Below, in pieces: positions 3,810-20,846 of a stretch of 35,447 nt of DNA. The notes under the pieces are model-generated. The model had not been told where the DNA came from. It searched no databases and was given only the letters and a program-made list of their open reading frames with translations. The translations under genes were made by a program, and so were the position numbers. Each line of letters starts with the position of its first letter. The stretch's first letter is position 1. The DNA comes from an uncultured Solirubrobacteraceae bacterium (GTDB lineage Bacteria; Actinomycetota; Thermoleophilia; Solirubrobacterales; Solirubrobacteraceae), in assembly GCA_902806205.1 (NCBI GenBank), contig CADCVR010000018.1:1-35447 (forward strand), read 5' to 3'.

Positions 3810-3823
3810 CGCGTCCCCGGGCT

Positions 3824-3991
3824 CAGGAGCCTCTTGAGATATTCGCGCGCCCGCTCAAAACTCCCTCGCGCGCACCATCCGCCACGCGACGACTGGCAGA
3901 TCCGACCAGGATCTGCCACGTCGTCACGCGACACCTGGCGCGGGCGATGTGGCTCTGAGCGACCACACGGCGATACATCAACAGACTCCTA
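3824..3991. repeat. Long imperfect palindrome A, tandem with palindrome B
   Basis: The segment folds back on itself around base 3906. The centre is a perfect 10-bp stem (TGGCAGATCC at 3894-3903 with GGATCTGCCA at 3909-3918, loop GACCA). After a one-base bulge come GACGAC/GTCGTC (3888-3893 with 3920-3925). The outer ends AGGAGCCTCTTGA (3825-3837) and TCAACAGACTCCT (3978-3990) pair at 11 of 13 positions. The intervening arms align with small gaps. I find no convincing gene in it. It ends just upstream of the alr ribosome-binding site. Confidence 0.7.
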
Positions 3992-4159
3992 GATGATTGA
4001 TTCCACGAGGTGGTCCCGTCGATCGGCGGTTCGGGTGGATGGCTGACGCCGCACGATTCCGCAGCCGATCCTGTACGGATCGGCAAGGGATCGGGTGGTG
4101 TCAGGTGCCAGCCGAAACGTCGAGCGGGCGGCACCGAATCCGTGGAATCACTCATCTAG
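3989..4159. repeat. Long imperfect palindrome B, overlapping the CBS gene stop
   Basis: A 171-bp palindrome centred at 4074. The outer 19-base arms (3989-4007 and 4141-4159) are inverted copies with one mismatch. The centre is a perfect 8-bp stem GCCGATCC (4064-4071) / GGATCGGC (4077-4084) with a 5-base loop. Intermediate arm sequence, for example CTGAC at 4043-4047 with GTCAG at 4100-4104, also pairs. CTAG occurs in the same orientation at both ends (3989-3992, 4156-4159), resembling a target-site duplication. The right CTAG contains the TAG stop of the CBS gene. Confidence 0.75.
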
Positions 4160-19238: not shown

Positions 19239-19334
19239 GGCGTGGTCTCCAACTCGGTGAGGTTCGACGGGGAGCAGGCAAGGTAGCACCGGCCGTGGAC
19301 GGATCCGCACTTCGCGTTAGTGTCACAAACGCCA

Positions 19335-19934
19335 ATGTCACTCCAAGCTCGCAGGGAGCCGGTTCCCCGGCGTCCGTACCGTCAAGTCGCCCGCGCGCAG
19401 ACGGCGGCGGCAACGCGGCAGCGGATCCTCGACGCGACCGAGGCGCTGCTCCGCGAGCACGCCGCCCGGACCGTGGCGATCACGACCGTCGCACAGGCCG
19501 CGGACACCACCGTTCCCACCGTCCTGCGCCACTTCGCCACCAAGGACATCCTGGTCTGGTCCGCGCTCGCGACGGCGCTCACGCGGATCCGCGCCGCTCG
19601 CCCGCGGATGACGGCGGGCGACCACCTCGGGGCCGCCCGGGTGCTTGCGGAGGAGTACGAGCGCCACGCGCCGCTCCTGGGCGCCGCCGAGACCGCGCTG
19701 CCCGACGCGCGCCGCGAGCTCGAGGCGGCGAGCCGCCTGCACCGCGACTGGCTTGCGCGCACCTTCGCGCGATCGCTCTCCCCCCTGCCGCCGGTCGTGC
19801 ACCGCCGCCGCCTCGCGCAGCTCGTTGCGGTCAGTGGCCCGGAGCCGTGGCGCGTGCTGCGCGAGACAGAACGGCTGGGGCCGGCGCAGGCCCAGGCGGC
19901 GCTGGCGGAGCTGCTCCGCGCGCTCGCGCCCTGA
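19335..19934 (+). CDS. TetR-family transcriptional regulator (second copy, distinct)
   Basis: 199 residues from ATG 19335; an in-frame GTG at 19320 would add five. The N-terminal helix-turn-helix reads TRQRILDATEALLREHA, TVAITTVAQAADTTVPTVLRHF and ATKDILVWSA. The C-terminal helical domain is not assignable to a ligand. It is divergent from guaB3 with about 96 bp between starts. A -10-like TAGTGT (19317-19322) just before the ATG suggests a leaderless mRNA. TGTCAC occurs twice as a direct repeat at the start (19321-19326 and 19336-19341). A target cannot be named; guaB3 is the obvious candidate. Confidence 0.88.
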   Translation: MSLQARREPVPRRPYRQVARAQTAAATRQRILDATEALLREHAARTVAITTVAQAADTTVPTVLRHFATKDILVWSALATALTRIRAARPRMTAGDHLGAARVLAEEYERHAPLLGAAETALPDARRELEAASRLHRDWLARTFARSLSPLPPVVHRRRLAQLVAVSGPEPWRVLRETERLGPAQAQAALAELLRALAP

Positions 19935-19959: not shown

Positions 19960-20131
19960 CTAAGTGCTCCGATTCCGAAGTTCCATGGCAGCATCCGGGC
20001 GCCTCACCGGGCCGTGACGCCCGGCGACGGCCCCGCAAGTACGCCCGGTACGAGCAGGGCCGTCGCCGAACGCCACGGCGCGCCGATCCATCCCGGATCC
20101 TGCGACGGAACTTACGAATCGGAGCACTAAG
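19960..20131. repeat. Long imperfect palindrome C between convergent genes
   Basis: A 172-bp palindrome. The outer arms are perfect over 12 bp (GTGCTCCGATTC 19964-19975 with GAATCGGAGCAC 20116-20127), then two mismatches and seven more pairs (19978-19984 with 20107-20113). An inner block of 23 bases (20011-20033 with 20057-20079) pairs at 20 positions. GTAC (20039-20042 and 20048-20051) closes a 5-base centre. TAA flanks both sides (19961-19963, 20128-20130). The right base contains the TAG stop of the ZIP-like gene (20127-20129). Confidence 0.75.
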
Positions 20132-20846
20132 CGGCGAGCACGAAGGAGACGAAGAAGCCCGCCGCCGTGGCGAAGGCGTTGTAGGGGCGCCCGTGCTCGA
20201 ACGCCTCGGGCATCAGCGTGTCGGCCAGGGAGGCGAGCACCGCCCCGCCCGCAAAGCCCAGCGCGAGCGCCAGCACCTCCTCCGACAGCCCGTCCGCGAC
20301 CCCGCGGCCGAGCACGACCATCAGCGCGAGCAGGACCGCGCACGCCGTCCACGTGCCGATGACCGCCGATCCCGAGCGGCCGCCGCGGCGCATCGCCACG
20401 GCCCCCACGAGCGCTTCGGGAAGATTCGAGGCGAAGATCGCCACCAGCAGGGTGAGCGAGGTGTTCTCGACGAGCGAGACGCCGAGCGCGAGGTTCTCCG
20501 GCACGCCGTCGAGCGTGACCGCCGCCAGCAGCGCCCAGCCCACCGCCCCTCCCGCCACCTCGCGGTTGTCGGGGCCGGAGCGGCCGGTGGTCCGGCGGTC
20601 GAGGTAGGTGTCCGCCGCGACGAACGCCGCCGCGCCCGCGAGCAGGCCGAGCCCCGAGCGCACGGCGCCCCCGAGCTCGAAGGCGTCTTCGAAGAGCTCG
20701 AAGGCGAGCGCGGAGATCAGCGCGCCCGAGGCGAAGGCCAGCAGCGTCCCCGTCACCTGCCTCGACGGGGAGAAGCGGGAGCCGATCAGCGCCCCGATGA
20801 CCAGGGCGCTCGACGCGGCCAGCCCGAAGAGCACGGCGGTCAGCAC
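20127..20846 (-). CDS. ZIP-family-like membrane transporter
   Basis: 239 residues with about eight hydrophobic segments and the ZIP topology. The signature segments are present but altered: LDGVPENLALGVSLVENTS in place of the family H-x-x-PEG stretch, and FASNLPEALVGAVAMRRGG in the next helix. FASGALISALAFELFEDAF matches the first conserved helix with an Asp/Glu-rich end. Family members move Zn2+ or other divalent metals, but the usual metal-binding histidines of TM4 and TM5 are missing, so the substrate is uncertain. GTG 20846 has a strong AGGAGG sequence. It is convergent with the second tetR gene. Confidence 0.85.
   Translation of the reverse strand: MLTAVLFGLAASSALVIGALIGSRFSPSRQVTGTLLAFASGALISALAFELFEDAFELGGAVRSGLGLLAGAAAFVAADTYLDRRTTGRSGPDNREVAGGAVGWALLAAVTLDGVPENLALGVSLVENTSLTLLVAIFASNLPEALVGAVAMRRGGRSGSAVIGTWTACAVLLALMVVLGRGVADGLSEEVLALALGFAGGAVLASLADTLMPEAFEHGRPYNAFATAAGFFVSFVLAA

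Follow-up and report, generated by a model that had tools for sequence, protein, structure and literature searches.

The repeat unit of pneumococcus, or RUP, is 107 bp long, AT-rich and inserted at TA, and it is thought to be moved in trans by IS630-Spn1 (PMC2229807, PMC3049150). The Correia elements of Neisseria, also called NEMIS, measure around 107-155 bp. They have terminal repeats with TA at the termini, and their transcripts are highly paired (PMC2229807). Yersinia has YPAL, or RU-2, a palindromic intergenic repeat of about 168 bp without TA at its termini (PMC2229807). ISY100 and canonical IS630 elements transpose by cut and paste into short AT-containing targets, and they duplicate TA (PMC2170065).

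The locus described here is a palindrome of 172 bp, called C below, at positions 19960..20131 of the forward strand. It is part of a stretch of 35,447 nucleotides, which is called the window. C is very probably a non-coding miniature inverted-repeat transposable element (MITE) of the IS630 family, which is related to Tc1/mariner, and more precisely of a subgroup with CTNAG as its insertion site.

C runs from one CTNAG to the other. Both pentamers are CTAAG (19960..19964 and 20127..20131), and their outer bases are exactly 19960 and 20131. A sequence-only reading had proposed a palindrome of 172 bp here, and its coordinates are correct to the base. Within the pentamers lie the 19-bp terminal inverted repeats. 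The 5' one, TGCTCCGATTCCGAAGTTC, is at 19965..19983 on the forward strand, and the 3' one, which reads TGCTCCGATTCGTAAGTTC inward, is at 20108..20126 on the reverse strand.

Paired without gaps, the outer arms give 2 pairs, a mismatch, 13 pairs, two mismatches and 7 pairs. Further inward there are runs of 1, 4 and 7 pairs with single mismatches between them. The sequence-only reading had given 12 perfect outer pairs and then 7 after two mismatches. The first mismatch, after the outermost 2 pairs, is the middle N of CTNAG. Among inverted repeats within 300 bases of each other, the outer and inner arms of C are the longest two that the window has. As DNA, C folds at -71.1 kcal/mol; dinucleotide shuffles average -46.2 +/- 3.5 (z = -7.2), and none of 200 equalled it. 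The curated models of Rfam had no match anywhere in the window.

The assembly from which the window comes (3.38 Mb, 108 contigs) holds approximately 27 dispersed copies of C, which were located by sequence search and then read as stretches. They sit at unrelated sites, so the earlier idea of a dispersed family of mobile palindromes holds for C. Ten copies are full-length, and the nine besides the window copy are 87-98% identical to it. Another nine are shortened: they miss at least 48 middle bases and retain both ends. These are mostly unequal in length, and it is the tip of the hairpin that has gone, as would be expected if unstable palindromes suffer deletions. The remaining eight or so are truncated, one-ended or cut by a contig end. 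Almost all copies start with CTNAG-TGCTCCGATTC and finish with GAATCGGAGCA-CTNAG. C is thus short, non-coding, present in many copies and bounded by terminal repeats, which is what makes a MITE.

The ends of C are also found elsewhere. A 16-base end pattern was searched for in 84,980 genomes. Such a scan mostly yields chance matches, and the loci kept are the few at which extension gave a longer match. These are L162, L199, L177 (metagenome bin.280), L175 and L182 (Acidobacteria) and L196 (Phycisphaerales). L162 is a short element from an unrelated genome, and its end CTNAGTGCTCCGATTCGTAAGTTC is identical to the 3' end of C at 23 of 23 fixed positions. L196 (2209-3503) is a complete insertion sequence of 1,295 bp that has CTAAG at either side. 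Its transposase reading is of the IS630 type, and one of its ends is close to the 3' repeat of C. Over all collected IS630 ends, agreement with C reaches up to 21 of 24 bases, where shuffles reach 17 at most. Viral contigs were found to contain no C ends.

CTNAG bounds both ends of several complete IS630 elements: L196, L212, L215, L216, L286 and one on the Polaromonas plasmid NC_007950.1. The last has CTAAG on both sides, and its gene is annotated as an IS630 family transposase. Long open transposase frames are present in relatives within the same bacterial family (L214, L215 and L216), and G256, from the same phylum, has an intact transposase with a protein that is 84% identical. The transposase readings contain DDE_3 (PF13358). 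Their best match is the IS630 model NF033545, at scores under its whole-protein cut-off since the readings are partial. C thus has its termini in common with elements whose transposase is of the IS630 (DDE_3) kind.

The two ends of C also differ from each other in the way the ends of the insertion sequences do. The 5' end, with its CCGAAGTTC, is like the right ends of IS630 elements of the CTNAG type (TCGGAAGTTC), and the 3' end, with its CGTAAGTTC, is like their left ends (CGTAAGTAA). Inward of the ends, C and these elements have no evident sequence in common.

The window's own genome contains one such IS630 element, L212 (G000:C108, 843-2115), of 1,273 bp and with CTAAG on both sides. Its transposase has frame breaks, yet shows a clear DDE_3 domain. 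Read directly, its ends agree with those of C at only some 14-15 of 24 bases. Because of the frame breaks and this end match, L212 may not be the mobiliser of C, even though it is the only matching element in the assembly. A transposase gene with matching ends, for which the sequence-only reading had suggested looking, thus does exist: decayed in this genome, intact in others. Other candidates were dropped. L211, a second IS630 in the window's genome, has unrelated ends, and L209, an IS1182 in that genome, has no relation to C. Locus L158 of Nonomuraea looked promising in a weak alignment, but its sequence has no such palindrome.

The middle base of CTNAG can be A, T, C or G. It varies among sites and mostly agrees within one site. 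With middle bases read by eye and decayed pentamers assigned by position, both flanks have the same base in 12 of 17 copies of C (permutation P 0.003) and in 12 of 13 related elements (P 0.001), among them L183 with CTGAG on either side. This match indicates a target duplication of TNA (3 bp) or CTNAG (5 bp), and not the TA that is usual for IS630. TA duplication as a mark of IS630 fails here, as CTCAG and CTGAG are inexplicable by TA. Five copies of C have unequal middle bases, four of them among the copies that are most alike. Our guess is that near-identical copies have recombined, or that these are misassemblies or assembly chimeras.

The complete IS630 elements with C-like ends carry the same CTNAG pentamers. 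A whole subgroup of IS630 therefore departs from TA, and the assignment of C is limited to IS630-type, CTNAG subgroup. Within the order, other IS630 elements occupy CTAG, so that both target types exist side by side. A search of the literature found no paper describing IS630 elements with a CTNAG, TNA or CTAG target.

C is probably mobilised in trans, to judge by its ends and flanks. An IS630-type transposase would bind the TGCTCCGATTC... ends, excise C and insert it at a CTNAG site, with duplication of the target. Where such a site overlaps a stop codon, the duplication would preserve the stop, so that insertions at gene ends would be tolerated. We infer both the transposition in trans and the position of the cut.

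The window copy is in such a place. From the left, a TetR-type regulator gene (19320..19934, forward strand; Pfam PF00440) converges on it, with its stop 25 bp ahead of C. From the right comes a ZIP-family transporter gene (20127..20846, reverse strand; Pfam PF02535, at its cut-off), which ends exactly in the target pentamer: the CTA of the right CTAAG, TAG on the reverse strand, is its stop codon. In G015, where the comparison covered the flank on the ZIP side, the orthologous gene has its stop at the same residue and no C element beside it. No pair of strains with and without the window copy was found. Over the family, 11 copies have a gene stop no farther than about 20 bp from their right end, and 1 copy has one that close to its left end. 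On the left side, several genes end at a distance of 22-28 bp, and the orientation of C relative to genes looks biased.

Copies at the 3' ends of genes, several of them between converging genes, are also what one would see if C were a feature of the host: a bidirectional terminator or mRNA-end hairpin selected at gene ends, with its transposon origin in the past. We consider this unlikely. The right end of C coincides with a gene stop in 6 of about 20 copies. Over 302 kb of the window's genome, 42 of the 127 CTNAG outside gene interiors overlap called stops, where the calls come from a codon-position script and are approximate. With a third of non-coding CTNAG overlapping stops, the 6 in 20 need neither selection nor special targeting, and the idea that C specifically targets stop codons was dropped. 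Target choice and gene avoidance together would give the observed placement. There is also no T-run behind the stem of the window copy, on either strand, and the nine copies without a centre persist.

The state of the hairpin is a further point in favour of a host role. In an alignment of 8 copies, taken from 4 species of one genus, pairing holds in 90% of cells, and 26 of the 54 pairs have changed on both sides (12.6 on average in shuffles, none of 500 reaching 26). If the partner is slid by one base, pairing falls to 29-39%. The inner stem covaries as well. Sister species thus keep the pairing even as the two arms change. Selection is not the only possible source of this, however, since one arm correcting the other can also produce covariation. 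For the outer part, some of it may come from both ends needing recognition by the same enzyme.

REP-like palindromes are a different class, 20-40 nt in size and linked to a Y1 transposase (TnpA_REP/RAYT). C is likewise extragenic, palindromic and present in many copies. It is nevertheless hardly conceivable that it was moved by such an enzyme, given its 172 bp, its IS630-type terminal inverted repeats and its target duplication on both sides. C falls outside this class on both size and flanking duplications: Y1 enzymes are not known to make target duplications.

The window holds two more palindromes of this size. Palindrome A (3822..3992, forward strand) has at least about 20 copies and IS1182-like ends, GGAGNCTGTTGA, as compared with L209. 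Palindrome B (3989..4159, forward strand) has around 30 copies and IS982-like ends, similar to those of an IS982 in G007. Both assignments are by short end similarity alone. A and B abut within 3822-4159 and have the CTAG between them in common, as if B had been inserted at a CTAG created by A. The junction of an A end and a B end, or remnants of it, recurs in L078, L056, L052, L055 and L060. In G007, L308:367-1372 is an IS982 with B-like CTAGATGGTTCGTTCCACGG ends, and a 1,135-bp IS630 is inserted at its end; this genome has at least 8 IS630 copies, several adjoining such CTAGATGGTTCGTTCCACGG ends. Back in the window's genome, a fragment of C is fused directly to one of B (G000:C36:8956-9138, L035), a composite of two families. 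Contigs often break off within B, and sometimes within A or C. These repeats thus interrupt the assembly, and the copy counts of all three are minima.

On the basis of their common size, the sequence-only reading had taken A, B and C for one family. What emerges is three multi-copy families, with IS1182-, IS982- and IS630-like termini. A single transposon lineage behind all of them is very improbable. They are equal in size (171-172 bp) and all palindromic, and A and B do have an interior in common: their consensus sequences share some 93 bp, collinear and in the same register, and score 29.6, where 1,000 palindrome-preserving shuffles reach at most 21.7. The termini of A and B differ, however, and those of the three palindromes fit three IS families and two target types. 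The similarity of C to A and to B is weak, in the case of A also out of register, and makes no convincing case for kinship with either. GATTC does occur 12-16 bases from the ends of C, as had been noted, and B has it at 11-15. With B and C only marginally similar overall (P 0.03-0.045), this motif is not evidence of kinship.

Relatives of C in two other genomes have different ends. In G001, these are nearest to CTAG-type IS630 elements (L229/L239, 18 of 24), with the CTNAG-type L162 close behind (17-18). A palindrome in G006 shares about 107 bp of homologous interior with C and ends differently. It has 35 of 44 bases in common with the central hairpin core of C (20023..20066), which covaries and is retained in palindromes of sister species. 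Used as a lone pattern with 3 mismatches, the central 21-mer matches half of all genomes, and of its matches just the one in G006, exact and in register, was counted.

The interior shared by A and B and that shared by C and G006 suggest, from few sequences, that ends may have been exchanged on persistent palindromic bodies. The palindromic body would then be the lasting unit, with cores that swap terminal repeats and are moved by different transposase families. A related core would carry IS1182-like ends in A and IS982-like ones in B; the core of C would have CTNAG-type IS630 ends here, IS630-like ends nearer to the CTAG type in G001 and others in G006. Taken together, these proposals are tentative and rather doubtful. 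If borne out, such sharing of cores beneath different ends would imply that a mini-transposon is able to switch the transposase it depends on.

A conspicuous palindrome is thus explained as a mobile element. As an IS630-type MITE, C is of an already known kind, and its odd points are the CTNAG target and a hairpin body that is paired across related species. The subgroup is a clear case of IS630 elements that target CTNAG rather than TA.

Of the systems named at the start, YPAL/RU-2 is like C in being palindromic and in its size, with the difference that PMC2229807 reports no IS630-type ends for it. Correia/NEMIS elements have other ends and another host, and the description in PMC2229807 lacks a linked IS630 parent. 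ISY100 and the canonical IS630 elements have a transposase of the same family as the C-type elements. They duplicate TA, where C-type elements are flanked by CTNAG with an N that is mostly equal within a site. Like C, RUP is a short non-coding repeat with terminal repeats that match IS630; C differs from it in being 172 bp long, GC-rich, fully palindromic and flanked by CTNAG.
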